64,000 nt of DNA from Isoetes taiwanensis (Eukaryota; Streptophyta; Lycopodiopsida; Isoetales; Isoetaceae). The stretch spans positions 1,995,138 through 2,059,137 of the forward strand of contig JAJEKV010000071.1 of NCBI GenBank assembly GCA_021234155.1, read 5' to 3'. Under the pieces are notes generated by a model. The model was not told the origin of the DNA. It did not search any database and saw only the letters and a list, made by a program, of their open reading frames with translations. Numbering within the stretch: the first letter of the stretch is position 1; each line of letters begins with the position of its first letter. The position numbers were made by a program, and so were the translations under genes. Shown one piece after another: positions 1 to 40,648 of this stretch.

Positions 1-1355
1 GAAAAGGTAAAAGCTATACAAGAATGGCCACAACCTCAATCTGTAAGGGAAATCCGGGCATTCATAGGATTAGCTGGATATTATCGCAGGTTTGTAAAGC
101 ATTTTTCCAGGAAAGCAGCTCCATAACCACCCTACTTCAAAAAGACTTAGCATTCCAATGGTCAGAGGTATGTAACCAAAGTTTTCAAATTCTAAAAGAT
201 GCCTTGACGCATGCACCAATCTTAAAGATTCCATCTATGGAGCGGGACTTTTGTGTGGTAACTGATGCCTCAGGCACTGGGATTGGATGTGCTTTATTAC
301 AGGATGGCCATGTGTGTGCGTATGCATCAAAGAAACTTAATCCAGCTGAATGGAATTATCCAACCCATGATTTGGAAATGCTTGCAATTGTGCATGCTTT
401 AAAGTTATGGAGGCATTATCTTTTGGGTAGGAAATTTCTCCTCAAGACCGATCATCAGAGTCTTAAGTATTTCCTGACGCAGCCTCAGCTAAGTAATCGC
501 CAGAAACGATGGATGCAACTGCTGCAGGAGTATGATCTCACTATAATGTATCAGCCTGGGAAAGATAACATAATTGATGATGTGTTGTCCCGACGATCAT
601 ACTGTGCTGCCATTAGTGTTGCTAATATGCAATGGGACAGCAATCTCACGCAGTTGATCCGGGAGGATTCTTATTTCCAGCCTATAATAGCAGCACTTGA
701 GAAAGGGAAAAATAAGAATCCCTATAAGATTGAAGCATCCAAGTTATTCTGCCACAATCGGTTGTGCATACCAGATAATGCCGACCTTAAACAACAGATT
801 ATGAAGGAAGCTCATGATAGTCCAGTATCGGGTCATCCAGCAGTTCAGAAAACTCTTCGTAAGTTCCGCAAGCAGTTCTTTTGGCCTAGCATGAAGAAAG
901 AAATTTTAGGCTACGTGGCCAGATGTTTACCATGCCAGAAGGTGAAAGCCTCTCACCAGAAGGTCGCAGGGGAATTGCAATCGTTGGATATTCCTGCTAC
1001 AAAACGGGAAAGTATAGGTATGGATTTTATTGTGGGATTGCCTAAGACACGAGCAGGATATGATTCCATCTATGTAGTAATGGATCGTCTCACCAAGCAA
1101 GCGCACTTTATGCCAACCAAAATCATGGCTACTGCTGCAGATGTTGCTAAGATTTTCATCAAGGATATATTCCCTCTGCATGGTATGCCTAAGGTTATTG
1201 TGTCAGACCGAGACACGCGCTTTGTTGGCCAGTTTTGGCAAGCATTATTCCACGGGGTTGGAACCCAATTACGGATGAGTACAGCCTATCATCCTCAAAC
1301 CGATGGTCAAGTTGAAAGAGTTAATCAGGTTGTCGAGGACATAACCAACCACTAG
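1..1355 (+). pseudogene. Ty3/gypsy pol fragment (RT end, RNase H, integrase)
   Basis: This is the 3' half of a Ty3/gypsy polyprotein. Bases 1-120 read in frame 1 as the end of the reverse transcriptase (IRAFIGLAGYYRRF). A one-base loss near 130 moves the reading to the frame open from 24 to 1355. That frame gives RNase H (VVTDASGTGIGCALLQ, then SKKLNPAEWNY and the KTDHQSLKYF signature), the HHCC zinc finger of integrase, and the integrase core (MDFIVGLPK, VSDRDTRF, STAYHPQTDGQVERVN). The ORF stops just after the core in VEDITNH, so the integrase C-terminus, any chromodomain, and the 3' LTR are missing. The left part lies outside the window. The family is certain, and the copy is not functional. 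Confidence 0.95.
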
Positions 1356-7556: not shown

Positions 7557-9383
7557 AGGTGCATTAGTGCATTCATATTTTGCTCATATCCTTCTCATTT
7601 TATATATGGCATCCATATCTTTGCATAATTAACCAGTTACTCTATGAACACATGGAATTCTTACTCCCACTTATATAAACACAATATCTACTATGTAGGA
7701 GGTGGTTGCTCTTTCTATGCTTGTGCAAGACTTGTGATTTGATGGTTTATATGCTATTCATGAACTTGCCAATGTTTTTTGAATTTTTATTTCTTTTTCA
7801 AACCAAAAAAACAATATCCCCCATAATACACCAAGACAAAAAGTTCTAAGTTTTTTTTGTTCGATACAAAATGGGGCCATGATAATATCATCTCTTCAAT
7901 ATCTTCATAAAAGCTTACTGCACTTCAATGATGCAGGACAAAGGACATGACAAGAATAATCAGCTTGGCAAAGAGTATGATTTGTTGCTGTGCAAAACAT
8001 ATTTTAATCAACTAGTAGAGTGTGAAACCCAATCAATCCCGCGCGGAAAGTTGCTGTTTTGACCCAGAAAGCTTAACCGCATATGAGCATATTATACATC
8101 ATCAGAAAGTCTCTGAGAGAGCTTTCCAGCGCAATAGAAAGAACTAAAAACATAGTCCCGATTCGAAAGTTATGATAAAAACCATGTTACTATCAAATTT
8201 GCATGGCATGCATTTTGCAAAAAGGTATCTGGATTGAAAATTAAAATAGTAGATTCCTATCTTGATAGATCTAGATCATATCATATGCCCTATGGAATGC
8301 TCTCTCATAAGCTTTTCAAAGATTTTAAGATCAGCTGAATCTGACCTCTGTAGCTCAAGTTATGAGCGCATAAATAATTGATATTTTCTCTCTAGTGCTC
8401 TTCTTTATCTATTTTTAGTGACTTAGATATTATATACAATGGTTTGATAAAAAAGAACCTCTCATAAAAATCTTATTTTTGATTAAACCTTTTTTTTTCC
8501 AACCAAAAATTTGTAAAAAGCATTTGCAAACATAATCAGCCCTATGAATTTGGGACTATAACTAGAAACTGCTAAAATAGTTTTTCTAGGCTTCTTGCAA
8601 GTGAAAGATCATAAAAAGCATATTCTCTTTTACAACAAAATAAGACAGAACATATCACATGCTAGTTGATTAAGAAATATAAAATGAAGAGGATCCATAC
8701 GTTTGCCTTCATTCTATTCTATTCTTCATAATGGACATATCTCATAATGCATACTTTAGAGCAGAAAGATAAACTAAAAGTTTATTTTTTTATACTTGAG
8801 TTGCATTTTGGTGTACAATCGTGCAAGATTCACACTATTGGTTCTAAACTTTTGTTGAGTGTTCAATTGTCTTTTATCAAATTCTACAAGATCGTATCAA
8901 GCTACTATTTTTTTTCTATAGAATCAATTATACAATTTTGTCAAATGGTCAAGAGTCAAGAATCTTGCACTTCTAATTAGACATTTAACAGAATTGAATT
9001 AATTTCTATCGTCTGCGGAGACCAATTGGCCTATGGGACTCAAATAAATGATATAGCAATGGAGGCGCTCATGATGGCGCTTAGGGTTTCAGCCCCCTTC
9101 GTTTGTTTATAACTCGGGATTCTGGTGTCAGATTTGGGTGTTCTTGGGCTCGTTGGAAAGCTCGTCGCAAGCCCTTTTTGAGGTGTATGATTTGTATGGT
9201 GATTCTTCTGTTTTGGTGGAAAGAACTCGCCTGAAAGTCCCGGCCCTCTTTTGGCGGTGCTAGGGTTTGGTTGCAATTTTCTTTTGGCTGTAACTTCTGC
9301 ATGTGGTGGCTGTTTTGGGCATGTTTGGGCTTGTTGGAAAGCTCTTTAAGCATCCATCCAGTGGTGCTTAATCTTCTCAGAGA

Positions 9384-10522
9384 TTGGCCTATTGGGAAGG
9401 ACTATTCAGCTCTAAAACCTGCCCCCTCTTTTTGTTGGAGATGACAAGATCCAGTCGCAGCTTGCCAAAACATTCTTCTGGTAGTTCTACCATAGTATAT
9501 GGAAGAATTGGAAAAGAATATGCTGCAAATTATCTCAGAATAAATGTACGTGATGCACACAAAATGGCTTGCGAAGGTGCTCTTTCGGCTCCTGAGAGTT
9601 TGGTTTCTTCGGTGCACCTCAATCCTTTAGTGTTGCCTAACATGTCTTCTAGTGGCACGAGTGGGGCCGCCTCAATTGAGACAGGAGCTCCATCTTTCTC
9701 CTCTTCTCAGTTACTTGTTCCAGTTTCGATTCCATATAGTTCATGCCTCTGCCCATACGTCTGGTGAGACTGGAAGACGTGTTGAACGTGTGCCATTGGA
9801 AAACTCTTCTGAAAGTGTCGTACTTCTAATGCACGTTGGAGGATCCTCAGGTTAGGTGATGTGCTCTGATCAATTAGCATCTCTGACAATCATTGGAAGT
9901 TCTGCGGGTCAGGCGAGACCCTCTTTGTCTGCCGAAATTGCTTCTGGGCTAGTGGCACCTCCAACACATGTTGGAGGTGCCTCATGTCAGCCGAGATCTC
10001 ATGTGCCTGTAGAGTGCTCCTCTGGACATGCTGCATCTAATAGTGTTGCACAAGCGGCACTTTCAACACAGGTTGGAAGTTCTTTCACGCGGACTTCTCA
10101 TGGAGGTAGTGCTCGGATGGTAGTGCAACCTACACAAACTGGTGTTTCCCCAGGACAAGTGGTGCGTCCAACGCACGTTGGAGGTCCCTTAGGGCAAGAG
10201 GAGTTTCCCCCTCTTCCCCCCCAGCAGCCTGGGTGACTTCCTCTTCCACCCCTCGAGCTGCGACGACCTCACCTTGGAGATCATCTAACACAGTAGCTCG
10301 AGTTACTGGTGTGCGATTTTCTGAGTGGCTTTGCAAGGGCTTGGCGACGCCAGCCACCTCAGCTCGTGTCTCAGAGGCCATTGCCACCATAGTGGATAAT
10401 AACAAGAAAGAAGTTGTGACGTTCCAGCATAATATATGCTCCCAATATGTATATTATACTGCCACGTCACACGTACATGCCATAGATGACATGTACTTGA
10501 GAGCCGAAGAACGTTGCACCTA
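9384..10522 (+). pseudogene. Repeat-containing coding remnant upstream of the LTR-like block, copy 1
   Basis: Not recognised. One frame runs from 9384 with RIGKEYAANYLRINVRDAHK, then coding shifts frame at least twice. The middle part codes a degenerate repeat built on HVGG, with variants THVGGASCQ, TQVGSSFT, TQTGVSPGQ and THVGGPLGQ, broken by a TAG at 9853. The last part (GVRFSEWLCKGLATPATSAR to AEERCT, stop at 10520) is in yet another frame. The same frames and the same TAG recur in copy 2, so decay began before the duplication. It ends about 35 bases before the LTR-like block, where the 3' end of an internal region would lie. Confidence 0.45.
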
Positions 10523-10557
10523 GGGGCCAAGAGTTGCACCTAGGGGGCAACCTCGAA

Positions 10558-12027
10558 TGTTGTGCATGTTAATAAAACATACACAACAAAACCCCCTTGA
10601 ACTCCCATTTTCCAAATGGCATGAATCCATTTGGCCAAGTGGTTAACCTAATCTAGAAAGGGTCTATATAAGGGCTATAACCCTAAACCCTAAACCCTTT
10701 CTATCTTTGACAATTAGGGTTTGCTAGAGCTCCTTTTCCATTCTCGCATTTAGGGTTCTCTTGAGCCATTTCAACCAAGTCAGGACTCCAATTCGCATTG
10801 CTAGGCTCCGAAAAGCCGGATTTGCACAACAGATTATCGATTAGCAGCCATCTTTAGCAAGATTAGGAGCGTGGACGCCTTCCGGGGATCAAAAGCAGGT
10901 CAAGGACCAGATATCTAGTTATTCTGTGTGCAAAGCCGTCTTTGGGCAAGGCAATAGGCTGGTTTAGTATGTTAGATCAACCTTAGAGGCCTTATAGATC
11001 CCGAGATCATAAGTCCTAACAAAGGAACCTAACTCTAGATGTTAGGTAGATAGATTGATGTTATTCTCTATTTCAGTTCTATGATGTTGTATGTATTTCA
11101 CTCTGTGACCTCCATGTATTGGGAAGGGGGGTAGAGGCCTAAAGCTGCGTAGCAGATGATCCTAGATAGCACCACTAGTTCCCAATTACATGCGGCCCGT
11201 GCACAGGAGCCCGCCTGGTTGTGGGTGGCGGGACTAGACCGGATGACAAGGAGGAACTTGTCCCCACACGGACTGACCCTCTGGTGTGTAAAGCCTACCG
11301 GGGGTCTATGCGGGCTAGGCTTAATGGCTTGTCACTGCTTGTGGGCAAGGCATGAGCTCGACACTCGTGGGGTGATGCGTCACCTTCCATTGAGTTCAAG
11401 TCGAATAAGGGCAGTGGCCCTCTAGCCACCCGTGATGGGCATGGATGCCTCTGGAGGGGAGTGACTCTCTTCCTGCCTCATCGGGGCTGGGGAGATGCAA
11501 CCCAGTAGTAGTAGCCCCTCTGGCTATTCACCCGGCAGGCTACGGTCAGGTCCCAATACTTTTCAACCTACTCTGCAAAGTGTGCACGGGAGGGGCGGAT
11601 GGAGTGGACTACCCTAAGCCATGTTCTTATGCCAGCCAAATCCATTTGCCATGAATTCTGTCTGCAATGACTTCTCGAGGCCCAAGCCATCAGTCATCCC
11701 CCTTGAGTCTGAGCCTTGTGTAGGATCTCCCCCTTTTTCTGTTATTGTTTATGTTGATGTTGATATCTCTATGATGTTTATGATGTGTTCGCCCTTCGAG
11801 GTGATTGTATTGATATATTGTGTTATGTGCTCATGTTTATTCATGCTTCCGTATATAGGTCGACCCGAAGAGAGACGGGTGAATGACACATCCACTCTTC
11901 CCTTGCTGGCTCATTCCACACTCAGGGAGTGGGGTCAAGTGAATGGCCCCTGCCAGTTTGGCTGAGAGGGGGGAATGCTCCGACTTCTGATACAGTGTGT
12001 GCACCGTATAGGGAGTAGGGGACGCCA
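10558..12027 (+). repeat. LTR-like block with promoter, copy 1
   Basis: The block starts TGTTGTGCATGTTAATAAAAC after a CTAGGGGGCAACC stretch and ends ACGCCA, three bases before a primer-binding site. It contains a TATA box at 10664 followed by (AACCCTA)n telobox units. It is repeated at 18459-19927 with nearly the same length (1470 and 1469). The TG...CA ends, internal promoter and adjacent PBS fit a long terminal repeat. No second LTR flanks either internal region inside the window, so assignment rests on these landmarks. Confidence 0.6.
10664..10673 (+). promoter_or_regulatory. TATA box of the LTR-like block, copy 1
   Basis: CTATATAAGG followed by GCTATAACCCTAAACCCTAA. Telobox motifs beside TATA boxes are typical of plant promoters active in dividing cells. 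The copy 2 equivalent is 18565-18574. Confidence 0.65.
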
Positions 12028-12030
12028 CGG

Positions 12031-12042
12031 TGGTATCAGAGC
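12031..12042 (+). other. Primer-binding site like initiator tRNA-Met, copy 1
   Basis: TGGTATCAGAGC is the usual primer-binding sequence of plant LTR retroelements and of plant pararetroviruses. It sits three bases after the end of the LTR-like block. Confidence 0.75.
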
Positions 12043-12246
12043 ATGATCTTGGCAGACCACGGTCGAGCACTGACTATTTTCCCATAGGACTAACAGTAGA
12101 TTCAAGCCTTGGGAAATAGCCACCCAAGCAAAAACCTCGAAAATTGGATTTTTTTTTTTCCAATTTTTAGTGTAGTAAATAGGTTAATGCTAAGTTAGTA
12201 ATAAGTTCTAGCAAGAACCCAACCTAAATTGTCCAAGAGGTGACCC

Positions 12247-12517
12247 CTCACAGAGTGTGCCCAGACCACTTTGGACCATGTTCCTAAGTGCTCCCCGCGC
12301 ACTGTGTGAGTGGTGGACCCAAGTTGACCTAGCTAGATGCATAATTTAGCTAATCTGACAGTGTAGTTCAGCTTATTACTTAGCTAATTTTGCATGTTAA
12401 AACATTAAGAAACCCCTTGTAAATTGAAAATTGGACCCAAAAAGAGGTGACCCCTCACAGAGTGCGTCCAGACCACTTTGGACCATGTTCCTAAGTGCTC
12501 CCCGCACACTGTATGAG
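12247..12517 (+). repeat. Two 64-nt hairpin repeats upstream of ORF1, copy 1
   Basis: Hairpins at 12247-12310 and 12454-12517. The arms are CTCACAGAGTGCGC-like and GCGCACTGTGTGAG, 13 of 14 pairs with one G-G mismatch. The interior reads CCAGACCACTTTGGACCATG and TTCCTAAGTGCTCCCC, allowing a small GGA/TCC inner stem. The second copy has small changes in the right arm. The spacers between copies are much less alike than the hairpins themselves. Confidence 0.9.
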
Positions 12518-12629
12518 TGGTGGATACTTTTTGGCTAGATAAACCTAATGTACTCCTCATATCTTCATTAATATCCTCTAGATTGGCCCAATATGGAATT
12601 GCAGGTCCAAACCCTAAATTTTCCCTACC

Positions 12630-12638
12630 TATAAGTAG
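12630..12638 (+). promoter_or_regulatory. TATA-like box of ORF1, copy 1
   Basis: TATAAGTAG lies 97 bases before the ORF1 start, between AAACCCTAAATTT and AAATTAGGGTTCC. The same box with the same flanks precedes ORF2 (14755-14763). The repeated layout argues that ORF1 has its own promoter. Confidence 0.6.
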
Positions 12639-12734
12639 AAAATTAGGGTTCCTCATCCTCAGCGCCTTCAGAAATTAGCTTGTCCCCGAAAACGATTTTT
12701 AGGCGCCAGAGCTCAAATCGCTTCAAACCAAGAC

Positions 12735-13955
12735 ATGGCCTGCACCAAACAGACAACCCGGATCACTGTGCCCCCTGGACATGTGAGCGCCCAAGAGCGG
12801 GCCGATCGACAGAAGGTCCGACAGTTCCAGGAGCGAGCCAAAGCAGAGGAACAGGAGGCTCAGCCTAACCCTAATGCCGAAGAGGAGACCCTAGAGCACC
12901 AGGAGGAGGAGCGCCCCCAAAGCCTTGAAGAAGAAGCCGAAGAAATCACAGAAGAGGCGGCAGCATTGCTGAGGAGGGAGCTCGAGAGAGAGCTCTTCCA
13001 GGACTTCGACAAGGAGGAAAAGAAGATGAAGAGGAAGAGGGATGGCGAACAGACGGAGGAAAGGAAGTCGAAGGAGGAGCGTCACAGGAAGAAGGAGGAG
13101 CGACGTAAGAGAAAAGAGGAAAAGAAGCAGAAGAGGGAGGAAAAGAAGAGGCGACGGGAGGAGCGCGAGAAGCTGAGGGCAGAAAAAGGAAAAGGCCCTG
13201 CGCTATCAAAGGACACGAAGCACAAGCTGAAAACGACTCCCGCCAAAGGAGTCGCCATCCAGGAGCCCGACCCCGAAAAGCCTCCGTCCTCATCTGACAC
13301 TGAGTCAGATGAGGAAAGAAGGATTCCCAGCCCAACTGAGGGTTCGGGACCCTCGAACGCAGGGCGAGAAAAAGAAGACGTAGTAGCAGGGGCACCCCCA
13401 TACCCCAGGTGGCCATCTCCCAAGCACCCATCGGACAACAACAAGAAGCCGAGGCCACAATGGGAGTCGTATGTACTCAAGCAGGATCTTGAGTACAAGA
13501 AGAAGTTGAAAGAGTATACTTCGTACATGAAAATGCACGAAGAATACTCTAAGTACTACGAGGAGCACAAGGTTACGTTTGTCGACGGAGGTCGGCCGAC
13601 GAAGAAGAACACACTGAAGCCACCACCTGAGAAACCAGCTCCCCCAAAGAAGCCCGTTAGAAGAAAGGTGGACTCGCGATTTTCCGGGGCTGCTCGAGAG
13701 ATCCGACATTTCCAGCGGAGTTACGGCTTTCTTATCCCTAGAGCTCCCTTCGCAAGGCTCACAAGGGAAGTTTTACAGAAGTTCGACCCCTCGAAGCGAG
13801 TCACAGATGATATGTTGCTCGCGTTACAGGAGGCGGCCGAGCAACATATAGTCCAGCACTTCGAAGACTCTGTTGCATGTGCTATGCATGCAAAAAGAGT
13901 GACATGTATGCCAAAAGATACGAGGCTGGCTAAATACATTAAGAAGGAATTCTAG
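12735..13955 (+). CDS. Histone H3 fusion protein (H3 tail, charged coiled coil, H3 fold)
   Basis: A 406-residue protein in one uninterrupted frame. Residues 1-9 (MACTKQTTR) copy the H3 tail start ARTKQTAR, keeping T3, K4, Q5, T6 and R8. Residues about 25-170 are Glu/Lys/Arg-rich and likely coiled coil. About 170-315 are Ser/Pro-rich then basic, ending KKPVRRK. Residues 316-406 form a complete H3 fold: AAREIRHFQRS (alpha N), LIPRAPFARLTREV (alpha 1), LLALQEAAEQHIVQHFED (alpha 2), CAMHAKRVTCMPKD (loop 2) and LAKYIKKEF (alpha 3). Cys382, His385 and Asp395 match H3 C110, H113 and D123 of the H3-H3' interface. Ordinary H3 has 135 or 136 residues, so this carries an insertion of about 290. It could enter nucleosomes or tether the element to chromatin; both are inference. 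The start is chosen because it gives the H3 tail directly after Met. Confidence 0.88.
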   Translation: MACTKQTTRITVPPGHVSAQERADRQKVRQFQERAKAEEQEAQPNPNAEEETLEHQEEERPQSLEEEAEEITEEAAALLRRELERELFQDFDKEEKKMKRKRDGEQTEERKSKEERHRKKEERRKRKEEKKQKREEKKRRREEREKLRAEKGKGPALSKDTKHKLKTTPAKGVAIQEPDPEKPPSSSDTESDEERRIPSPTEGSGPSNAGREKEDVVAGAPPYPRWPSPKHPSDNNKKPRPQWESYVLKQDLEYKKKLKEYTSYMKMHEEYSKYYEEHKVTFVDGGRPTKKNTLKPPPEKPAPPKKPVRRKVDSRFSGAAREIRHFQRSYGFLIPRAPFARLTREVLQKFDPSKRVTDDMLLALQEAAEQHIVQHFEDSVACAMHAKRVTCMPKDTRLAKYIKKEF

Positions 13956-14103
13956 ATTAATCCTTGTAAATAATTTTTGTAAATATAAGTTTGTAATTTT
14001 GCTGGATTAATGTGTTAAATCGTGTCTAATCAAGGTGTAATACAAACTTTTGCATTTGGAATTAACAAAATTGGAGTAAAACTCAGTGTTTTTAGCCCCA
14101 CCC

Positions 14104-14578
14104 CTCACAGAGTGCACCCAAACCACTTTGGACAAGGCTCCTAAGTGCTCCCCGCGCACTGTGTGAGTGGTCGAGCACTGATCTATACCAAAACTTGTCC
14201 AAATGCAGAAAGTACGCACACCATTCGACTCAACTCACCTTAATTAGTAGGATTTGACCCTTAGTTTGTAGAAATTGGCCAACCCTTACTCAAATGGAGC
14301 CCTACCCATCACAGAGTGCACCGAGACCACTTTGGACAAGGCTCCTAAGTGCTCCCCGCGCACTGTGTGAGTGGTCGACCCCTAAATTACACCAAAACTT
14401 GTCCAAATGAAGCAAGTAAGGGCACAATCCGACCTATGTCGACGAGATATGCAGGATTCCATCCTTAGTTTGCATGTTTGGCATCATCCTCGACCCAAAC
14501 AAGGCCCCACCCCTTACACAGAGTGCACCCAGACCACTTTGGACCATGTTCCTAAGTGCTCCCCGCGCACTGTGTGAG
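14104..14578 (+). repeat. Three 64-66-nt hairpin repeats between ORF1 and ORF2, copy 1
   Basis: Hairpins at 14104-14167, 14308-14371 and 14513-14578, starting every 204-205 bases. The arms are as in the ORF1 array. The first two have GGACAAGGCTCC in the loop and the third has GGACCATGTTCC, so the GGA/TCC pairing is kept while the loop changes. Spacers share only short pieces such as ACCAAAACTTGTCCAAATG. Confidence 0.9.
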
Positions 14579-14754
14579 TGGTCACACTTAAATTGTCCTA
14601 ACTTAGCATAACTTTCACCAAATTAGAGGAAATTGTTGCAATAGGATCCTTAGAATGCACTCCTTAGCATGATTACTTGCCTTTTGCATAGCAATACCTT
14701 AGAATCATAGGTTTTCCCCAAACCCTAAAATTTCCCAAAATTAGGGTTTTTGCC

Positions 14755-14763
14755 TATAAGTAG
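14755..14763 (+). promoter_or_regulatory. TATA-like box of ORF2, copy 1
   Basis: TATAAGTAG after AAACCCTAAAA and AATTAGGGTTTTTGCC, 110-118 bases before the ORF2 start at 14873. The arrangement is the same as before ORF1. Confidence 0.6.
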
Positions 14764-14872
14764 ACCACAACCCTCATTTGCATCCTACACCCTTGCTCCT
14801 CACTCCTAGCCGATTTTCCAGGCCCCTAAGGCACTTTCCCATCTGTTTAATATCCCTAGCTGCTCATAGACC

Positions 14873-16371
14873 ATGGCAACCACTTAATTTAGGCGATGGT
14901 ACAGCGCCACAGCTCATGTGGCCGAGGCCAACATCAACTCCGTCTTCGCCGTTTTCCAAAAGCAGGTTGATGTGGAGGCCACCATCAATGCCACCCCCTT
15001 CTACCAAGACATTATGTCGGAGTTCCATGCTAAGATAGGACCTTCTCTAGTAGAGCTCCCACCTTGCGTAGGATATTTTGCACCAAGCATGGCCCTCAAG
15101 TTAGCACTCCAAGACATACCTAATATAGACAAGTACCTAGAAAACAAGGCTAGTCGCCTACCTAATTACATGTCTGTATCTGCCAACAGGAGGAGATACT
15201 TCTCTTACAATGCAGCCATAGCTATTTTCCTATCTCTTCGAGCCCAAACCCAGATAGGAGAACCATCGGTGGAACCCCTAGACATAGAGCCAATGGCCAT
15301 GGCAGCAGCTGAAGAAGAGCAGATGCGCCTTGCATACGAGGAGGCAGAGGAAGAAGAAGAGGAAGGACATCGACCTAGTATAAGAAAGGCAACAAGCAGA
15401 GAAGCAGCTCCAAAGCTTCGAAGAAGGGCTCAAAGTTACAAGAACAGCCCCACCACTTGGGCAAGGAATTACAAGCTTGACCCCGGTGATCATAGGAGGA
15501 GAGGCATACTTAAACCTCCATGATATTAAGAACCAACCCGAGTGCCGAGACAGGGGCTACATGGTAGATGAACTCCTACATCCTACGACAAGACCCTGAT
15601 CTCGACGACTTCATCGACAGAGAAATTCAAGACTTCCCCATCAGCATAAAAGAAGCCAGAACATACACCGGCCAGACAACCACAGATATTGAAGCCTACA
15701 CCGACATCAGACAGATGATGGCTGAGCAAGAGTTGCCGACGGAAGGAGTTCTTGGCGATTCAGGAGCGCATGGGAATCAAGGGAAAATCAACGTCTATAC
15801 TCCCACCTAGCACATCGGCATCGGCACCAGCATCATCAGAAAGAAGAAGCATCAACCTGACATCTTCCATGTACCGTGACTACAGAGAGATGGTGGAAGT
15901 ACCGGTTGATGAGTACTCCGGAAGACACCAAGCAGCCTTCACATCAGGCGGAGAGGCAGGGCATGACAAAGCCCTTAGGTTCTATCTCCCTTTACTCATA
16001 GATGGAAGGATAGCGGTCATACACCGCCAATTCAGCCCAGGGGTGAAGAAGGAGTCTTCATGCTCATCGCTCTCTCAGGATTCGGAAGTCATGCTCGTAT
16101 GGCCCCAAACATCGACCATGTCATCCTCGTCAAGTGAACGATAGCATTGAGCATCTTTGACTTCGCAGTCCCCTACAGATGGCAGGGCAGATTGGCAGTG
16201 ACTGCAGCCTATACATCGGACAGGAGGATCGAAGACTTGGTGACCGCACTTCAAGGAGGCCGCCGCGAACATTTCTCTTCTGCAACCCGATGCGAAAAGA
16301 AGCTTTGTGCTAAGTCGAATAGTTCTCAATTTTGGACATTCGTGGGATGGAAAAGAACACGCAGGAGTTGA
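14873..16371 (+). pseudogene. ORF2/ORF3, copy 1 (decayed)
   Basis: Not a recognised family. The original start ATG at 14873 is followed by a TAA after four codons. Coding resumes by 14918 (MAEANINSVFAVFQKQVDVE) and runs to an acidic Glu-rich tail. A loss of bases in that tail shifts the frame relative to copy 2. ORF3 follows, starting at 15568 (MNSYILRQDPDLDDF), with frameshifts near 15750 and 16040 and a TGA at 16135. The ORF3 part is homologous to the 62814-63797 gene. Together the two look like one protein with an N-terminal domain, acidic linker and C-terminal domain. Function unknown; a structural or nucleic-acid-binding role is only a guess. Confidence 0.6.
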
Positions 16372-16433
16372 ACATGCACTATTGCCATCTGTTTTGTGCC
16401 CATATGATAGATAGGTACTATTTGACTACCATA

Positions 16434-16900
16434 GGTGAAGAACAATGATACGACTTTACAATGTAACCTTGAGCTTCTTGGAGAACACGATTATCTGCCA
16501 CATCCAGACCTTTGAAGATTACCAATCTTCGTCTTTTCCAGATAGTCCAAAGCAACCATCCTGCTGCTAGATGAAAAGCCTGGCCTTGTAACTCTGTCCA
16601 GGTACTTGGGTAAATTGCCAAAAGCAGTTGTTGACTTGTTAGTGAAACCTGAAAAAGGGAAAACAACCAGTCCCATACCTGTCTAAGGTGTTCACACATG
16701 AAAAAGCAATGCTCAATGGTCTCAGACCCACGCTTGCATACTGGACACTGATTTGATATTCTAGGGTTAAACTTATGGACAAGCACATTAACCCGCAGAC
16801 ACCTATGAAGAATCTGCCACCAAAGAACTGCCACTTTAGGATGAAGTAGCTTGTCCCATGCCCAAGACCACACCTTCTGCCATTGAAGAGGAGGAAGTTG
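16434..16900 (-). pseudogene. LINE ORF2 C-terminal fragment (zf-RVT)
   Basis: On the minus strand an open frame (16873 to 16418) reads WDKLLHPKVAVLWWQILHRC, then NQCPVCKRGSETIEHCFFMC and LRQVWDWLF. The CPxC...ExxxHxxxxC pattern is the zinc-binding domain at the end of L1-type plant LINE ORF2 proteins. Reverse transcriptase and 3' UTR are missing. The fragment fills the gap between the two H3-bearing units, and its last codons run into copy 1 sequence, so the junction is chimeric. Confidence 0.85.
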
Positions 16901-17285
16901 AATTAATTTCTATCGTCCGCGGAGACCAATTGGCCTATGGGACTCAAATAAATGATATAGCAATGGAGGCGCTCATGATGGCGCTTAGGGTTTCAGCCCC
17001 ATTCTTTTGTTCATAACTCGGGATTCTGGTGTCAGATTTGGGTGTTCTTAGGCTCCTTGGAAAGCTCGTCGCAAGCCCTTTCTGAGAAGTATGATTTATA
17101 TGGTGATTCTTCTATTTGGTGGAAAGAACTCACCTGAAAGTCCTGGCCCTCTTTTGGCGGTGCTAGGGTTTGGTTGCAATTTTCTTTTGGCCATAACTTC
17201 TGCATGTGGTGGCAGTGTTGGGCATGTTTGGGCTTGTTGGAAAGCTCTTTAAGCCTCCATCCAGTGGTGCTTAATCTTCTCAGAG

Positions 17286-18422
17286 ATTGGCCTGTTGGGA
17301 AGGACTATTCAGCTCTAAAGCCTGCCCCCCTTTTTGTTGGAGATGACAAGATCCAGTCGCAGCTTGCCAAAACATTCTTCTGGTAGTTCTACCATAGTAT
17401 ATGGAAGAATTGGAAAAGAATATGCTGCAGATTATCTCAGAATAAGTGTACGTGATGCACACAAAATGGCTTGCGAAGTTGCTCTTTTGGCTCCTGAGAG
17501 TTTGGTTTCTTCGGTGCACTCAATCCTTTAGTGTTGTCTAACATGTCTTCTAGTGGCACGAGTGGGGCCGCCTCAATTGAGACAGGAGCTCCATCTTTCT
17601 CCTCTTCTCAGTTACTTGTCCCAGTTTCGATTCCATATAGTTCATGCCTCTGCGCATACGTCTGGTGAGACTGGAAGACGTGTTGAACGTGTGCCATTGG
17701 AAAACTCTTCTGAAAGTGTCGTACTTCTAATGCACGTTGAAGGATCCTCAGGTTAGGTGATGTGCTCTAATCAATTAGCATCTCTGACAATCATTGGAAG
17801 TTCTGCGGGTCAGGCGAGACCCTCTTTGTCTGCCGAAATTGCTTCTGGGCTAGTGGGACCTCCAACACATGTTGGAGGTGCCTCATGTCAGCCGAGATCT
17901 CATGTGCCTGTAGAGTGCTCCTCTGGACATGCTGCACCTAATAGTGTTGCACAAGCGGCACCTTCAATACAGGTTGGAAGTTCTTTCACGCGGACTTCTC
18001 ATGGAGGTAGTGCTCGGATGGTGGTGCAACCTACACAAACTGGTGTTTCCCCAGGACAAGTGGTGCGTCCAACGCACGTTGGAGTCCCTTAGGGCAAGAG
18101 GAGTTTCCCCCTCTTCCCCCCCAGCAGCCTGGGTGACTTCCTCTTCCACCCCTCGAGCTGCGACGACCTCACCTTGGAGATCATCTAACACAGTAGCTCG
18201 AGTTAGTGGTGTGCGATTTTCTGAGTGGCTTTGCAAGGGCTTGGCGACGCCAGCCACCTCAGCTCGTGTCTCAGAGGCCATTGCCACCATAGTGGATAAT
18301 AACAAGAAAGAAGTTGTGACGTTCCAGCATAATATACGCTCCCAATACGTATATTATACTGCCACGTCACACGTACATGCCATAGATGACATGTACTTGA
18401 GAGTCGAAGAACGTTGCACCTA
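17286..18422 (+). pseudogene. Repeat-containing coding remnant, copy 2
   Basis: Equivalent of 9384-10522, with the same HVGG-type repeats, the same TAG before MCSNQLASL and the same frame changes. A lost base near 18085 (THVGVP) adds a further break. Product not recognised. Confidence 0.45.
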
Positions 18423-18458
18423 GGGGCCAAGAGTTGCACCTAGGGGGGCAACCTCGAA

Positions 18459-19927
18459 TGTTGTGCATGTTAATAAAACATACACAACAAAACCCCCTTG
18501 AACCCCCATTTTCCAAATGGCATGAATCCATTTGGCCAAGTGGTTAACCTAATCTAGAAAGGGTCTATATAAGGGCTATAACCCTAAACCCTAAACCCTT
18601 TCTATCTTTGACAATTAGGGTTTCCTAGAGCTCCTTTTCCATTCTCGCATTTAGGGTTCTCTTGAGCCATTTCGGCCAAGTCAGGACTCCAATTCGCATT
18701 GCTAGGCTCCGAAAAGTCAGATTTGCACAACAGATTATCGATTAGCAGCCATATTTAGCAAGATTAGGAGCATGGACGCCTTCCGGGGATCAGGAGTAGG
18801 TCAAGGACCAGATATCTAGTTATTCTGTGTGCAAAGCCATCTTTGGGCAAGGCAATAGGCTGGTTTAGTATGTTAGATCAACTCTAGAGGCCTTATAGAT
18901 CCCGAGATCATAAGTCCTAACAAAGGAACCTAACTCTAGATGTTAGGTAGATAGATTGATGTTATTCTCTATTTCAGTTCTATGATGTTGTATGTATTTC
19001 ACTCTGTGGCCTCCATGTATTGGGAAGGGAAGTAGAGGCCTAAAGCTGTGTAGCAGATGATCCTAGATAGCACCACTAGTTCCCAATTACATGCGGCCCG
19101 TGCACAGGAGCCCGCCTGGTTGTGGGTGGCGGGACTAGACCGGATGACAAGGAGGAACTTGTCCCAACGCGAACTGACCCCTCTGGTGTGTAAAGCCTAC
19201 CTGGGGTCTATGCGGGCTAGGCTTAATGGCTTGTCACTGCGTGTGGGCAAGGCATGAGCTCGACACTCGTGGGGTGATACGTCACCTTCCATTGAGTTCA
19301 AGTCGAATAAGGGCAGTGGCCCTCTAGCCGCCCGTGATGGGCATGGATGCATCTGGAGGGGAGGTGACTCTCTTCCTGCCTCATCGGGGGGAAGATGCAA
19401 TCCAGTAGTAGTAGCCCCACTGGCTATTCACCCGGCAGGCTACGATCAGGTCCCAATACTTTTCAACCTACTCTGCAAAGTGTGCACGGGAGGGGCGGAT
19501 GGAGTGGACCACCCTAAGCCATGTTCTTATGCCAGCCAAATCCATTTGCCATGAATTCTGTCTGCAATGACTTCTGGAGGCCCAAGCCGTCAGTCATCCC
19601 CCTTGAGTCTGAGCCTTGTGTAGGATCTCCCCCTTTTTCTGTTATTGTTTATGTTGATGTTGATATCTCTATGATGTTCATGATGTGTTCGCCCTTCGAG
19701 GTGATTGTATTGATATATTGTGTTATGTGCTCATGTTTATTCATGCTTCCGTATATAGGTCGACCCAAAGGGAGACGGGTGAATGACACATCCACTCTTC
19801 CCTTGCTAGCTCATTCCACACTCAGGGAGTGTGGTCAGGTGAATGGCCTCTGCCAGTTTGGCTGACAGGGGGGAATGCTCTGACTTCTGATACAGTGTGT
19901 GCACCGTATAGGGAGTAGGGGACGTCA
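18459..19927 (+). repeat. LTR-like block with promoter, copy 2
   Basis: Second copy of the 10558-12027 block, with TATA box CTATATAAGG at 18565-18574 followed by telobox units. It ends ACGTCA just before the PBS. Confidence 0.6.
18565..18574 (+). promoter_or_regulatory. TATA box of the LTR-like block, copy 2
   Basis: CTATATAAGG with ACCCTAAACCCTAAACCC directly downstream, identical in layout to 10664-10673. Confidence 0.65.
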
Positions 19928-19930
19928 CAG

Positions 19931-19942
19931 TGGTATCAGAGC
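19931..19942 (+). other. Primer-binding site like initiator tRNA-Met, copy 2
   Basis: TGGTATCAGAGC, 7900 bases after the copy 1 site. Confidence 0.75.
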
Positions 19943-20136
19943 ATGATCTTGGTAGACCAAGGTCGAGCACTGACCATTTTCCCATAGGACTAACATTAGA
20001 TTCAAGCCTTGGGAAATAGCCACCCAACCAGGAACCTCGAAAATTGGAAATTTTTTTTTCCAATTTTTAGTGTAGTGAATAAAGTTAGTAAGAAGTTCTA
20101 GCAAGAACCCAACCTAAATTGTCCAAGAGGTGACCC

Positions 20137-20414
20137 CTCACAGAGTGCGCCCAGACCACTTTGGACCATGTTCCTAAGTGCTCCCCGCGCACTGTGTGAG
20201 TGGTGGACCCAAGTTGACCTAGCTAGATGCATAATTTAGCTAATCTGACAGTGTAGTTCAGCTTATTACTTAGATTCTAGCTAGTTTTGCATGTTAAAAT
20301 ATTAAGAAACCCCTTGTAAATTGAAAATTGGACCCAAAAAGAGGTGACCCCTCACAGAGTGCGCCCAGACCACTTTGGACCATGTTCCTAAGTGCTCCCC
20401 GCGCACTGTGTGAG
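20137..20414 (+). repeat. Two hairpin repeats upstream of ORF1, copy 2
   Basis: Hairpins at 20137-20200 and 20351-20414. Both have arms CTCACAGAGTGCGC and GCGCACTGTGTGAG, and the loop type GGACCATGTTCC. The second copy is more regular here than in copy 1. Confidence 0.9.
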
Positions 20415-20526
20415 TGGTGGATACTTTTTGGCTAGATAAACCTAATGTACTCCTCATATCTTCATTAATATCCTCTAGATTGGCCCAATATGGAATTGCA
20501 GGTCCAAACCCTAAATTTCCCCTACC

Positions 20527-20535
20527 TATAAGTAG
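20527..20535 (+). promoter_or_regulatory. TATA-like box of ORF1, copy 2
   Basis: TATAAGTAG, 101 bases before the ORF1 start, flanked by AAACCCTAAATTT and TTAGGGTT as in copy 1. Confidence 0.6.
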
Positions 20536-20635
20536 AAAATTAGGGTTCCTCATTTGTCCTCAGCGCCTTCAGAAATTAGCTCGTCCCCGAAAATGATTTT
20601 TAGGCGCCAGAGCTCAAATCGGTTCAAACCAAGAC

Positions 20636-21847
20636 ATGGCCTGCACCAAACAGACAACCCGGATCACTGTGCCCCCTGGACATGTGAGCGCCCAAGAGCG
20701 GGCCGCTCGACAGAAGGTCCGACAGTTCCAGGAGCGAGCCGAAGAGGAGGAACAGGAGGCTCAGCCTAACTCTAATGCCGAAGAGGAGACCCTAGAGCAC
20801 CAGGAGGAGGAGCGCCCCCAAAGCCTTGAAGAAGAAGCCGAGGAAATCACAGAAGAAGAGGCGGCAGCGTTACTGCGGAGGGAGCTCGAGAGAGAGCTCT
20901 TCCAGGACTTCGACAAGGAGGAAAAGAAGATGAAGAAGAGGAAGAGGGATGGCGGACAGACGAAGGAAAGGAAGTCGAAGGAGGAGCGTCACAGGGAGAA
21001 GGAGGAGCGACGTAAGAGAAAAGAGGAAAAGAAGCAGAAGAGGGAGGAAAAGAAGAGGCGACGGGAGGAGGGCGAGAAGCTGAGGGCAGAAAAAGGAAAA
21101 GGCCCTGCGCTATCAAAGGACACGAAGCACAAGCTGAAGATGACTCCCGCCAAAGGAGTCGCCATCCAGGAGCCCGACCCCGAAAAGCCTCCATCCTCAT
21201 CTGACACTGAGTCAGATGAGGAAAGAAGGATTCCCAACCCAACTGAGGGTTCGGGACCCTCGAACACAGGGTGAGGAAAAGAAGACGTAGTAGCAGGGGC
21301 ACCCCCGTACCCCAAGTGGCCATCTCCCAAGCACCCGTCAGACATCAACAAGAAGCCGAGGCCACAATGGGAGTCATATGTACTCAAGCAAGATCTTGAG
21401 TACAGGAAGAAGTTGAAAGAATATACTTCGTACATGAAAATGCACGAAGAATACTCTAAGTACTACGAGGAGCACAAGGTTACGTTTGTCGAAGGAGGTC
21501 GGCCGACGAAGAAGAACACACTGAAGCCACCACCTGAGAAACCAGCTCCCCCAAAGAAGCCCGTTAGAAGAAAGGCGGACTCGCAATTTTCCAGAGCTGC
21601 TCGAGAGATCCGATATTTCCAGCGGAGTTACGGCTTTCTTATCCCTAGAGCTCCCTTCGCAAGGCTCACAAGGGAAGTTTTACAGGAGTTCGACCCCTCG
21701 AAGCGAGTCACAGATGATATGTTGCTCAAGCATGTGAGGTGGCCGAAAGCAAAAGATATAGTCCAAAGACTGAAGACTTCGTTGCATGTGCTATGCATGC
21801 AAAAAGAGTGACATGTATGCCAAAAGATACGAGGCTGGCTAAATACA
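20636..21847 (+). pseudogene. Histone H3 fusion protein, copy 2 (broken)
   Basis: It begins with the same MACTKQTTR tail and charged region, open to 21274. There a TGA replaces the CGA (Arg) codon of copy 1, a CpG-type transition. The frame then continues through the KKLKEYTSYMKMHEEYSKYY segment into the H3 fold with REIRYFQRSYGFLIPRAPFA. After DDMLL the copy 1 sequence ALQEAAEQHIVQHFED is replaced by unrelated codons and the frame shifts, ending at 21811. Alpha 2 and loop 2 are therefore lost. This copy cannot make a complete H3 fold. Confidence 0.85.
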
Positions 21848-22012
21848 TTAAGAAGGAATTCTAGATTAATCCTTGTAAATAATTTTTGTAAATATAAGTT
21901 TGTAATTTTGCTGGATTAATGTGTTAAATCGTGTCTAATCAAGGTGTATTACAAACTTTTGCATTTGGAATTAACAAAATTGGAGTAAAACTCAGTGTTT
22001 TTGGCCCCACCC

Positions 22013-22485
22013 CTCATAGAGTGTGCCCAGACCACTTTGGACAAGGCTCCTAAGTGCTCCCCGCGCACTGTGTGAGTGGTCGAGCACTGATCTATGCCAA
22101 AACTTGTCCAAATGCAGAAAGTAAGCACACCATTCGACTCAACTCACCTTAATTAGTAGGATTTGACCCTTAGTTTGTAGAAATTGGCCAACCCTAACTC
22201 AAATGGAGCCCCACCCCTCACAGAGTGCACTCAGACCACTTTGGACAAGGCTCCTAAGTGCTCCCCGCGCACTGTGTGAGTGGTCGACCCCTAAACTACA
22301 CCAAAACTTGTCCAAATGAAGCAAGTAAGGGCACAATCCGACCTATGTCGACGAGATATGCAGGATTCCATCCTTAGTTTGCATGTTTGGCATCATCCTC
22401 GACCCAAACAAGGCCCCACCCCTTACACAGAGTACCCAGACCACTTTGGATCATGTTCCTAAGTGCTCCCCGCGCACTGTGTGAG
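22013..22485 (+). repeat. Three hairpin repeats between ORF1 and ORF2, copy 2
   Basis: Hairpins at 22013-22076, 22217-22280 and 22422-22485, spacing 204-205 bases as in copy 1. The first has CTCATAGAGTGTGC in the left arm and the third has lost two arm bases (AGAGTACCC). The right arm GCGCACTGTGTGAG is unchanged in all three. Confidence 0.9.
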
Positions 22486-22661
22486 TGGTCACACTTAAAT
22501 TGTCCTAACTTAGCATAACTTTCACCAAATTAGAGGAAATTGTTGCAATAGGATCCTTAGAATGCACTCCTTAGCATGATTACTTGTCTTTTGCATAGCA
22601 ATACCTTAGAATCATAGGTTTTTCCCAAACCCTAAAATTTCCCAAAATTAGGGTTTTTGCC

Positions 22662-22670
22662 TATAAGTAG
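22662..22670 (+). promoter_or_regulatory. TATA-like box of ORF2, copy 2
   Basis: TATAAGTAG, 118 bases upstream of the ORF2 ATG at 22780, between AATTAGGGTTTTTGCC and ACCACAACCC. Confidence 0.6.
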
Positions 22671-22779
22671 ACCACAACCCTCATTTGCATCCTACGCCCT
22701 TGCTCCTCACTCCTAGCCAATTTTCCAGGCCCCTAAGGCGCTTTCCCATCTGTTTAATATCCCCAGCTGCTCATAGACC

Positions 22780-24457
22780 ATGGCAACCTTTGCATTTAGG
22801 CGATGGTACAGTGCCACAGCTCATGTGGCCGAGGCCAACATCAACTCCGTCTTCGCCGTTTTCCAGAAGCAGGTTGATGTGGAGGCCACCATCAATGCCA
22901 CCCCCTTCTACCAAGACATTATGTCGGAGTTCCAGCTAAGATAGGACCTTCTCTAGTAGAGCTGCCACCTTGCGTAGGATATTTTGCACCAAACATGGCC
23001 CTCAAGATAGCACTCCAAGACATACCTAATATAGACAAGTACCTAGAAAACAAGGCTAGTCGCCTACCTAATTACATGTCTGTATCTGCCAACAGGAGAA
23101 GATACTTCTCTTACAATGCAGCCGTAGCTATTTTCCTATCTCTTCGAGCCCAAACCCAGATAGGAGAACCATCGGTGCAACCCCTAGACATAGAGCCAAT
23201 GGCCATGGCAGCAGCTGAAGAAGAGCAAATGCGCCTTGCATACGAGGAGGCAGAGGAAGAAGAAGAGGAAGGAAGCGGCTCGGATTCAGAGGACATCGAC
23301 CTGGTATAAGAAAGGAAACAAGCAGAGCAGCAGCTCCAAAGCTTCGAAGAAGGGCTCAAAGTTACAAGAACAGCCCCACCACTTGGGCAAGGAATTACAA
23401 GCTTGACCCCGGTGATTATAGGAGGAGAGGCACTCCATGATATTAAGAACCTCCCCGAGTGCCGAGACAGGGGCTACAGGGTAGATGAACTCCTACATCC
23501 TACGACAAGATCATGATCTCGACGACTTCATCGACAGAGAAATTCAAGACTTCCCCATCAGCATAAGGGAAGCCAGAACATACACCCGGCCAGACATCCA
23601 CAGATATTGAAGCCTACACCGACATCAGACAGATGATGGCTGAGCAAGAGTTGCTGACGGAAGAGGAGTTCTTGGCGATTCAGGAGCGCATGGGAATCAA
23701 GGGAAAATCAACGTCTATACTCCCACCTAGCACATCGGCATCGGCACCAGCATCATCAGAAAGAAGAAGCATCAACCTGACATCTTCCATGTACCGTGAC
23801 TACAGAGAGACGGTGGAAGTACCAGTTGATGAGTACTCCGGAAGACACCAAGCAGCCTTCACATCAGGCGGAGAGGCAGGGCATGACAAAGCCCTTAGGT
23901 TCTATCTCCCTTTACTCATAGATGGAAGGATAGCGGTCATACACTGCCAATTCAACCCACGGGGTGAAGAAGGAGTCTTCAAGCTCATCGCTCTCTCAGG
24001 ATTCGGAAGTCATGCTCGTATGGCCCCAAACATCGACCATGTCATCCTCGTCAAGAGAACGATAGCATTGAGCATCTTCGACTTCGCAGTCCCCTACAGA
24101 TGGCAGGGCAGATTGGCAGTGACTGCAACCTACACATCGGACAGGAGAATCGAAGACTTGGTGACCGCACTTCAAGGAGGCCGCCGCGAACATTTCTCTT
24201 CTGCAACCCGATGCGAAAAGAAGCTTTGTGCTAAGTCGAATAGTTCTCAATTTTGGACATTCGTGGGATGGAAAAGAACGCAGGAGTTGAACATGCACTA
24301 TTGCCATCTGTTTTGTACCCGTATGATAGATAGGTGCTATTTGACTACCATAGGATTCCCATTATTCTTTATTGTTTTCATTTATTTTATTTTATTTTTG
24401 CATCCGATGATAGTCAGCGGGGTTTGGGCATTGAATGGGGTCAACCATTATCAATAG
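22780..24457 (+). pseudogene. ORF2/ORF3, copy 2
   Basis: The start ATG at 22780 is intact (MATFAFRRWYSATAHVAEAN). A one-base loss near 22934 breaks the frame; it resumes at 22995 (MALKIALQDIPNIDKYLENK) and ends in an acidic tail, EEEEEEGSGSDSEDIDLV, with TAA. The codons after that TAA continue in the same frame (QLQSFEEGLKVTRTAPPLG). ORF3 starts near its MNSYIL start, shifts once near 23585, and is open from 23633 to 24457. It contains TEEEFLAIQERMG, an Ser/Ala-rich linker and ALRFYLPLLIDGRIAVIHCQ. The C-terminal domain matches the 62814-63797 gene. The last 80 or so codons have no match there and may not belong. Confidence 0.6.
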
Positions 24458-24830
24458 CTTGACCGCTAGACTGTCATCGCGATGTCATTTATTTTATTTT
24501 ATTTTTGCATCCGATGACAGTCAGCGGGGTTTGGGCATTGAATGGGGTCAACCATTATCAATAGCTTGACTGCTAGACTATCATCGCGATGGATGTTCTA
24601 TATTCTTTTCATTTATTTTATTTTATTTTTGCATCCGATGACAGTCAGCGGGTTTTGGGCATTGAATGGGGTCAACTATTATCAATAGCTTGACCACTAA
24701 ACTGTCATTGCGATGATGTTCTATTCATCTATTTCATCTTATTTTTACATCCCATGATAGTCAGTGGATTTTAGGCTTTGGGGTCGCCCACTACCAATAG
24801 CTTGACCACTAGGCTGGCATAGCGCTGTGA
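24379..24830 (+). repeat. Four tandem units of about 105-120 bp, each able to fold
   Basis: Units begin near 24379, 24485, 24606 and 24723, with an AT-rich TTTATTTTATTTTATTTTTG head. The body has arms CGATGACAGTC and GACTGTCATCG about 60 bases apart, enclosing a second pair GGGGTCAA and TTGACC. The fourth unit is the most diverged. The array directly follows ORF3 of copy 2 and is absent from copy 1, which breaks off before it. Confidence 0.85.
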
Positions 24831-25357
24831 TTTATTGTATATCTTTTGTTGATTTTCTTTAAAAGTCCTCAGACAGAGAACAAAAAAAATAGAAAAATGA
24901 ATGACGTGAGATAGCACGTTATCTATCATATGGGCAGAGAAGGGAGATTTTTTTATTTTTTTATTTTTCCTCTTTTGTCATACCTTATTAGAACAACGGT
25001 GAATAAGTCGTCTGTACTTGTCTAATTAGTGGTTGAAGAAAACACGCGTATGCAAGCATCTACACATATGATAATTACGGAAAACCCAACTTGTTAACAA
25101 AAGAGTTCTCTGTACATAACATTTCTCTTGCGTATACATGCGAGATTCGTGTATCATTGACTATTTGCAAAGACACATGTACCTCATATTCGAATGACGT
25201 CGAAGAAGTCATATGTACCTGCTCAATAATGATTAAAGAAAAGAAAGCACACATTAGCAGAGAAAACGTTAAGGCAAACATACCTTTGTAGTAGAGAATT
25301 GAAGAAGCCACAAAGAAGCTGCACATATGATGTGATAATTAAGAAAAACTTAGCTGG
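24831..25357. other. Non-coding stretch before the Helitron remnant
   Basis: AT-rich with no supported gene. The pieces CTTGTTAACAAA...CATATGATAATTA occur twice (about 25065 and 25325), a small imperfect direct repeat. Confidence 0.4.
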
Positions 25358-28515: not shown

Positions 28516-28559
28516 ATCTACTAGGTACTCTCCGCATAGCGACCTAGCTGCAAAGATCG

Positions 28560-33066: not shown

Positions 33067-33279
33067 GAATCAAGGATGGGCTCGGACCCTTTCAATGCAA
33101 CTAATACCCTTGAACTTTCAAATAGCAAGTCCTCAAAATAGCATGAAAGTACGGAGTACGGGCATGTACAATGGTCATCCTTAGGCAACGTAAAAAGTTG
33201 ATCTGGAAGATGGGTAATCTTTACTGAATACATAGATAGTGCAACAAGCAAAATTTGCTAGGAAGATTAGTCGCAAACC

Positions 33280-40619: not shown

Positions 40620-40648
40620 GTTTTATATATGCTATCTTAGTAATGTTA

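Follow-up and report, generated by a model that had tools for sequence, protein, structure and literature searches.

A divergent histone H3 with a long charged tail beside a long terminal repeat in Isoetes taiwanensis

An open reading frame of Isoetes taiwanensis, here called ORF1, encodes what by its sequence is a divergent H3-family histone and not a canonical H3. It is best explained as a histone carried by a plant LTR (long terminal repeat) retroelement, non-autonomous or truncated, in whose 5' internal region it lies; to this reading we assign a probability somewhat below 60%. The window analysed is a stretch of 64,000 nucleotides of contig JAJEKV010000071.1, and all positions refer to it. 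Directly established are the identity of the fold, the LTR, the primer site, the duplication, the intact frame of the first copy and the upstream motifs common to two of the ORFs.

Histone fold of ORF1

The intact copy of ORF1 (copy 1) is divided as follows.

12735..13955 (+): ORF1 copy 1, intact, H3-family protein of 406 aa (Pfam, PDB sequences, alignment and model)
12735..12764 (+): H3-like N-terminus M-ACTKQTTRI, with K4 and R8 kept and R2→C, A7→T and K9→I
12765..13688 (+): long charged linker, replacing H3 tail residues from about 10 to 46
13689..13952 (+): H3 histone fold, ORF1 residues 319-406, equivalent to H3 positions 47-134 without gaps

The frame runs from an ATG at 12735 to a stop at 13955 with 406 codons open, exactly where the first-pass annotation of this DNA had put it. 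The sole Pfam family in ORF1 is the core-histone model PF00125, which matches residues 292-402 with an E-value of 1.1e-22. H3 chains of the PDB match residues 285-405 (phmmer, E about 1e-21). The phmmer search of PDB chains returned 175 distinct sequences up to E 0.001; the best 60 of the 175 are all named histone H3 and the best among the matches listed is Histone H3.3 (E 7e-22). Profile and H3 sequences both place ORF1 in the histone H3 family over the fold. Among NCBIfam models an archaeal histone model matched below its cut-off (E 4e-05), and the other matches were at chance level.

Residues 319-406 align with plant H3.3 without a gap (46/88 identical, 52%, score 211). Similar values were obtained for plant H3.1 (45/88, score 207) and Xenopus H3.2 (44/88, score 209), and lower ones for yeast H3 (40/88, score 181). 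Alignments with the CENH3 proteins of Arabidopsis (41/88, score 179) and maize (43/88, score 176), both typed references, each required a two-residue gap, and human CENP-A required eight gap positions (41/85 identical, score 152). The earlier proposal of an alignment through the whole H3 fold was borne out by this gap-free match over H3 47-134, with which Pfam and PDB agree. The segments ALQEAAE, FED, HAKRVT and MPKD that it listed are all present in ORF1, and the equivalents of C110, H113 and D123 are kept in the alignment. Two of its statements need correction: the excess over H3 is about 270 residues and not an insertion of 290, and the view that H3 variants differ by few residues does not extend to CENH3s, which are strongly diverged H3 variants.

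Residues that are regarded as H3 contacts in the nucleosome are largely unchanged in ORF1: 8/11 for DNA, 9/10 for the H3-H3' bundle and 9/12 for the H4 interface, where the other 3 are conservative replacements. The changed contact residues include R63, K64, F84 and L109. Residues 296-406 were also modelled as a single chain by single-sequence AlphaFold. Helices were predicted at residues 315-329, 336-350, 358-384 and 396-405, a layout which we take to be the aN/a1/a2/a3 arrangement of H3. The confidence was modest (mean pLDDT 61.5, pTM 0.39), with pLDDT 80-84 in blocks 41-70 of the model. The model check that the first-pass annotation had suggested gave H3-like helices at modest confidence, and alignment and model together indicate the H3 helix layout without insertions or deletions. 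A Foldseek search with the model gave 399 matches up to E 10, the best 50 of which are histone or nucleosome entries with 44-50% identity. The top E-value is 3.5e-5, and superposition among these best 50 is poor (TM by query 0.45-0.47, rmsd 10-16 Å); with a TM of about 0.46 and such deviations the Foldseek match leans on sequence.

ORF1 could instead be a host H3 variant gene, long-tailed and possibly related to CENH3, which by chance lies beside an LTR fragment, was locally co-duplicated with it and is used by the host. This we consider unlikely. CENH3 joins an H3-like start to a variable tail, as ORF1 does, and the motif LIPxAPF of ORF1 resembles maize CENH3; both likenesses, which rest partly on typed references, would suit a host gene. 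The scores speak against it, since plant and animal H3 reach 207-211 and the two plant CENH3 proteins 176-179, although yeast H3 at 181 is hardly better than CENH3. Loop 1 of CENH3 exceeds that of H3 by one residue or more. ORF1 is free of gaps with H3 and has a two-residue gap with the typed Arabidopsis and maize CENH3 references, so that its loop 1 is without the insertion, and MPKD is of the H3 type. A CENH3 origin, suggested by LIPxAPF, was rejected, as plant CENH3 scores below plant H3. ORF1 shares the complete H3 fold with plant H3.3 and CENH3, but it differs from them in its identity of 52% to H3.3, its tail of about 300 residues, the missing CENH3 loop-1 insertion and the replacement of K9 and K14.

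N-terminal tail and linker

Following the initial methionine the ORF1 sequence is A C T K Q T T R I T V, against A R T K Q T A R K S T in H3. The first nine residues had been described as a copy of the H3 tail; seven of them match, methionine included, and two differ. The change of K9 to isoleucine is flanked by A7→T and S10→T. K14 is replaced by glycine, and from there the tail cannot be aligned with H3 until just before the fold, so the later tail lysines up to about 36 have no alignable counterpart. Among the modifiable lysines of the canonical tail (K4, K9, K14, K27, K36) only K4 is kept, and because the modifiable tail is otherwise replaced ORF1 is classed as a divergent variant. The linker is highly charged: residues 10-316 contain 77 K/R, 68 D/E and 30 P among 307 residues.

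The duplicated block and its LTR

ORF1 lies in a block that is present twice in the window, each time with an LTR.

8994..16435 (+): duplicated block copy 1, 7.4 kb
16898..24354 (+): duplicated block copy 2, 96% identical to copy 1
16436..16897 (-): LINE fragment of 462 bp between the block copies (zf-RVT, E 3.2e-12, in the minus-strand piece 16421-16909)
10415..12029 (+): LTR copy 1, 1615 bp, beginning TGTGACGT and ending ACGCCACG
18315..19929 (+): LTR copy 2, TGTGACGT...ACGTCACA, 96.8% identical to LTR copy 1
12031..12042 (+): primer binding site TGGTATCAGAGC, one base 3' of LTR copy 1

In copy 2 the LTR termini TGTGACGT and ACGTCACA form a perfect 8-bp terminal inverted repeat and both TG...CA ends are intact, while the 3' end of the copy 1 LTR is CG. 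The sequence TGGTATCAGAGC, which we take to be the initiator tRNA-Met (iMet-type) primer site of plant LTR elements, recurs in copy 2 at 19931. Its first 11 bases are found only at 12031 and 19931 on both strands of the whole window, and 0.003 occurrences of the 12-mer are expected from base composition on the plus strand of the window. A TG...CA LTR with an adjacent primer site, as in LTR retrotransposons, is thus present. ORF1 begins 705 bp after the 1615-bp LTR, with the primer site between them, and each LTR is preceded, at a distance of one base, by a purine run, AAGAAAGAAG.

The LTR occurs only twice in the window, at a spacing of 7.9 kb, and both copies are inside the duplicated block. 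Because the same block flanks both LTRs on both sides, no target-site duplication can be defined. The pair represents either the 5' and 3' ends of one element within a tandem or one 5' LTR that was duplicated with its surroundings. With just two copies of the block in the window, in one tandem, independent transposition is unsupported; this counts against the element reading, and a segmental duplication that took in a single truncated element is just as possible. A local event that duplicated 7.4 kb in tandem would also suit a host gene. The first-pass annotation had proposed a mobile or viral element that captured H3 and inserted a charged coiled coil between tail and fold. The element-like repeat stands, with its LTR, its iMet-type primer site and a block present twice; capture of a host H3 followed by insertion is unsupported, and the long tail could have evolved first in a host H3 variant.

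Search for gag and pol

All 55 of the 55 listed stop-free pieces of the block and its left edge, of at least 70 aa in copy 1 and at least 90 aa in copy 2, were scanned against Pfam, two of them from the ATG on and with E limits of 1, 10 or 0.1 depending on the piece set. No gag, protease, RT, RNase H, integrase or movement protein was detected in any of these 55 pieces, a scan that genes decayed into shorter pieces could escape. Curated cut-offs were passed only by Histone (copy 1 and one copy 2 piece) and zf-RVT. Sub-cutoff matches to PI3K_1B_p101, Spidroin_MaSp, DUF4148, Lysostaphin_N, APEH_N and UL41A were taken as chance. Since the scanned pieces hold neither the gag nor the pol of an LTR retrotransposon, the class can be given only as a non-autonomous or truncated LTR retroelement. 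A pol fragment of Ty3/gypsy type is found at 24-1355 (+), about 9 kb upstream of the first LTR, with RNase H, an integrase zinc finger and a sub-cutoff rve match.

ORF1 might also be a gag- or capsid-like structural protein of a retroelement or pararetrovirus, in which the H3 fold binds the element's own nucleic acid. It occupies the usual place of gag, after the primer site, and is highly charged. In the accessible text of PMC10377300, caulimovirid genomes measure 7.1-9.8 kb and endogenous forms are often found in tandem arrays, which the tandem spacing of about 7.9 kb and the iMet-type primer site would fit. Against this, no movement-protein, protease, RT or RNase H family was detected in the scanned pieces, and a by-eye likeness of the neighbouring ORF3 to 30K movement proteins found no Pfam match up to E 10 and an unusable model. 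Caulimovirids, moreover, are not known to have LTRs. A structural role is accordingly judged improbable.

The movement protein, capsid zinc finger, protease and RT-RNase H of Caulimoviridae were not found in the 55 pieces, and an endogenous caulimovirid was dropped as a candidate, the 30K likeness of ORF3 being unsupported by Pfam, PDB or model. The viral origin offered as one option by the first-pass annotation likewise gained no support, with no movement-protein, RT or capsid family in the scanned pieces. ORF1 had no relatives in viral or genome contig collections, a result that says little because the scan reaches close relatives only and canonical plant H3 also found none in the viral contig collection.

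Neighbouring ORFs, hairpins and promoter-like modules

Upstream and downstream of ORF1 the block carries hairpin repeats, two promoter-like modules and two further ORFs.

12235..12524 (+): two 75-nt hairpin repeats upstream of ORF1 (units 12235-12317 and 12442-12524)
12607..12639 (+): ORF1 promoter-like module, CCAAACCCTAAATTTTCCC and CCTATAAGTAGA (12628)
14094..14585 (+): three 75-nt hairpin repeats between ORF1 and ORF2
14718..14764 (+): promoter-like module of ORF2, containing both motifs of the ORF1 module (TATA at 14753)
14888..15523 (+): ORF2 copy 1, no Pfam family, with a stop four codons after the likely ATG
15568..16368 (+): ORF3 region copy 1, broken by frameshifts, no family
23633..24457 (+): ORF3 copy 2, 274 aa open, no family (fold model unusable, pLDDT 44)

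The hairpin repeat occurs in ten copies, in 12235-14585 and 20125-22490, and each block has two before ORF1 and three before ORF2. Its 31-nt core had 10 matches in the window with up to 3 mismatches and 0 in 100 shuffles. The five hairpins that were folded, out of ten, beat their shuffles (z -3.7 to -6.5), and the least variable part of the repeat is the 3' arm. No Rfam match was found in 8900-24900, hairpins included, up to E 0.5, and the hairpin core had no match in the viral contig collection.

The motif CCTATAAGTAGA occurs four times in the window, every time before ORF1 or ORF2. A box, CCAAACCCTAAAxTTTCCC, is also common to the upstream regions of both ORFs; its local score of 33 was reached by 0 of 1000 shuffles, the highest of which scored 32. 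ORF1 and ORF2 are tied together as one unit by the hairpin repeats and the TATA motif that they have in common. For an LTR element, promoter-like modules in the interior are unusual, and the TATA motif and leader of the ORF1 cassette are what a host gene would have; the presence of the same upstream motifs at the unrelated ORF2 in the same repeat argues the other way.

ORF2 and ORF3 lie downstream of ORF1 at 14888-16368 in copy 1, where they are broken by a stop and frameshifts, and at 22750-24457 in copy 2. ORF2 has no Pfam match up to E 10. It was considered as a paralogue of ORF1 and rejected, with no BLASTP match up to E 10. ORF3 was considered as a 30K movement protein from its by-eye likeness and also rejected: it has no Pfam match up to E 10, nothing usable in the PDB and a model with pLDDT 44.

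A tandem array at 24365-24860, with copies 107 and 124 bp apart, adjoins the right edge of block copy 2. To its right are Helitron remains at 26258-28572 (-), with Helitron_like_N (E 7e-20) and PIF1 helicase (E 4e-31). A second Helitron_like_N piece (49960-50797, +, E 1e-10) has the opposite orientation and is 71-75% similar. Inverted repeats at 33136-42007 are 97-99% identical. A Vps16 N-terminal match (E 3e-31) overlaps their left arm, and between the two arms there is a weak Vps16_C match below the cut-off, so this is perhaps an inverted duplication of Vps16 exons. The window also contains a long CTA trinucleotide microsatellite (61401-61500) and, by Pfam, LRR and berberine-bridge-enzyme-like genes, which are in keeping with a land plant.

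Decay of the second copy and selection

The second copy of ORF1 no longer encodes a full-length protein.

20636..21864 (+): ORF1 copy 2, broken, with a premature stop and a frameshifted patch in helix a2

The stop is at codon 211 and the garbled stretch covers about codons 363-380, and the histone profile still matches one piece (E 1.2e-07). Codons 1-23 are identical between the copies. Taken over all 401 comparable codons, the comparison gives pN/pS 0.52 (Fisher p 0.034), and the changes divide 16, 16 and 18 over the codon positions. Codons 1-362, before the garbled end, show 14 synonymous and 22 non-synonymous changes (pN/pS 0.43, p 0.021; positions 11, 11 and 14), and codons 1-316 show 13 and 19 (pN/pS 0.40, p 0.013); the test assumes independent sites and does not correct for mutation bias. 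The tail and linker supply modest sequence evidence that ORF1 was under constraint in the past. Selection on the fold is not supported by the comparison, because fold codons 319-362 show 0 synonymous and 2 non-synonymous changes. The H3 domain nevertheless probably evolved for a long time as a working histone, in host or element, because 42/88 residues differ from H3.3 and no indel or stop has appeared.

Constraint on the linker would fit a host gene as well, but copy 2 is already a pseudogene. That ORF1 is a captured H3 in plain decay, carried by the element as functionless cargo, seems distinctly unlikely. Such decay would explain the stop and frameshifts of copy 2 and the two changes in fold codons 319-362, both non-synonymous. 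It would also have a parallel in Pseudocercospora fijiensis, where all H3 copies borne by a transposable element (TE) are inactivated according to the available portion of PMC6710886, though many are potentially active in Pyrenophora tritici-repentis. In copy 1, however, 406 codons stay open, and the pN/pS of 0.43 (p 0.021) over codons 1-362 argues for constraint. The 42 replacements in the fold, with contacts kept and no indel or stop, would hardly be neutral.

Comparison with known systems

Capture of histone H3 by hAT DNA transposons is described for P. fijiensis and relatives and for P. tritici-repentis in the text available of PMC6710886. By the same account P. fijiensis has 784 H3-like sequences, of which 90% are truncated and only the original has escaped inactivation by RIP, and P. 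tritici-repentis has 26 H3 copies. There too a TE carries and multiplies an H3 coding sequence, which is intronless in P. fijiensis, but the carriers are DNA transposons and no long tail insert is described in that portion (PMC6710886). ORF1, in contrast, is from a plant and an LTR element, has about 270 extra residues and is open in one of two copies.

Among plant LTR retrotransposons, additional or captured ORFs are well documented, as in Retand, Grande and Bs1 (PMC7264820 and PMC11963269, as far as their accessible text goes). Likenesses to ORF1 in these excerpts are a non-gag/pol ORF within an LTR element, non-autonomy of some copies and known capture of host genes. Their additional ORFs are more often placed between pol and the 3' LTR, whereas ORF1 follows the primer site and has its own promoter-like module. 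A term search did not find the word histone in the main text of PMC7264820 or PMC11963269. Among the matches listed for TE-borne or captured histones, titles and abstract openings named no plant retroelement with a histone. A survey of eukaryotic chromatin genes reportedly discusses TE fusions, so a published precedent is possible.

Giant viruses such as Medusavirus and Melbournevirus are also genetic parasites that encode histones. In the excerpts of PMC11500106 and PMC12297534 these are large DNA viruses with core-histone sets or doublets, and nothing there links them to the LTR element described here.

Proposed role

For the preferred reading, a divergent H3 carried by an LTR retroelement, the following role is proposed. 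The predicted protein would consist of an H3 tail start, a charged linker of about 300 residues and a complete H3 fold. ORF1, if it belongs to the element, would be the first ORF of its 5' internal region, an intronless cassette with its own promoter-like module that may be expressed as protein. The product may pair with H4 and enter chromatin as a substitute for H3, or alternatively tether the long charged tail to nucleosomes. In either form the tail could bring a charged, perhaps nucleic-acid-binding arm to chromatin, and chromatin at the element, or at its integration targets, may thereby be altered. From the kept contact residues we infer a chromatin-targeting role.

A more specific idea, that the element encodes a histone which disarms its own silencing, is a long shot. 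The predicted tail keeps K4 and R8, has isoleucine for K9 and would offer no recognisable K27. Nucleosomes with this protein could take no K9 methylation on that tail, because K9 is isoleucine. By analogy with K-to-M and K-to-I histones, which trap their enzymes, the QTTRIT tail might trap H3K9 methyltransferases. In the portions available of the literature, H3 with K27 changed to methionine or isoleucine inhibits PRC2 and H3 K9M binds the active site of G9a (PMC6513997), K27 isoleucine is weaker than methionine, K9M and K36M reduce their enzymes and K4M does not (PMC4446520, a review), and K9M in fission yeast blocks H3K9 methylation dominantly (PMC5030085). Like these mutants and the inhibitor EZHIP, ORF1 would present a hydrophobic residue where the H3 tail has a lysine open to methylation, in this case K9→I following an intact R8. 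The known systems, as far as those excerpts go, are either normal H3 carrying a mutation or EZHIP, an inhibitor from mammals, with isoleucine described for K27 and not for K9. The neighbours of position 9 differ in ORF1, and inhibition by its product is hypothetical.

The modest reading, a divergent H3 within a plant LTR element, already takes H3 carried by TEs beyond the DNA transposons of fungi, to an LTR element of a plant and to a new protein design. Provided that ORF1 yields a protein, a mobile element might use it to alter how the DNA surrounding the element is packaged. Transposon silencing in plants works largely through marks on H3, and an H3 altered at K9 and extended by a long tail within a retroelement would, if this is true, be a direct weapon or tool in that conflict. 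It would also mean that a mobile element can harbour the remodelling of a protein that ranks among the most conserved in eukaryotes.
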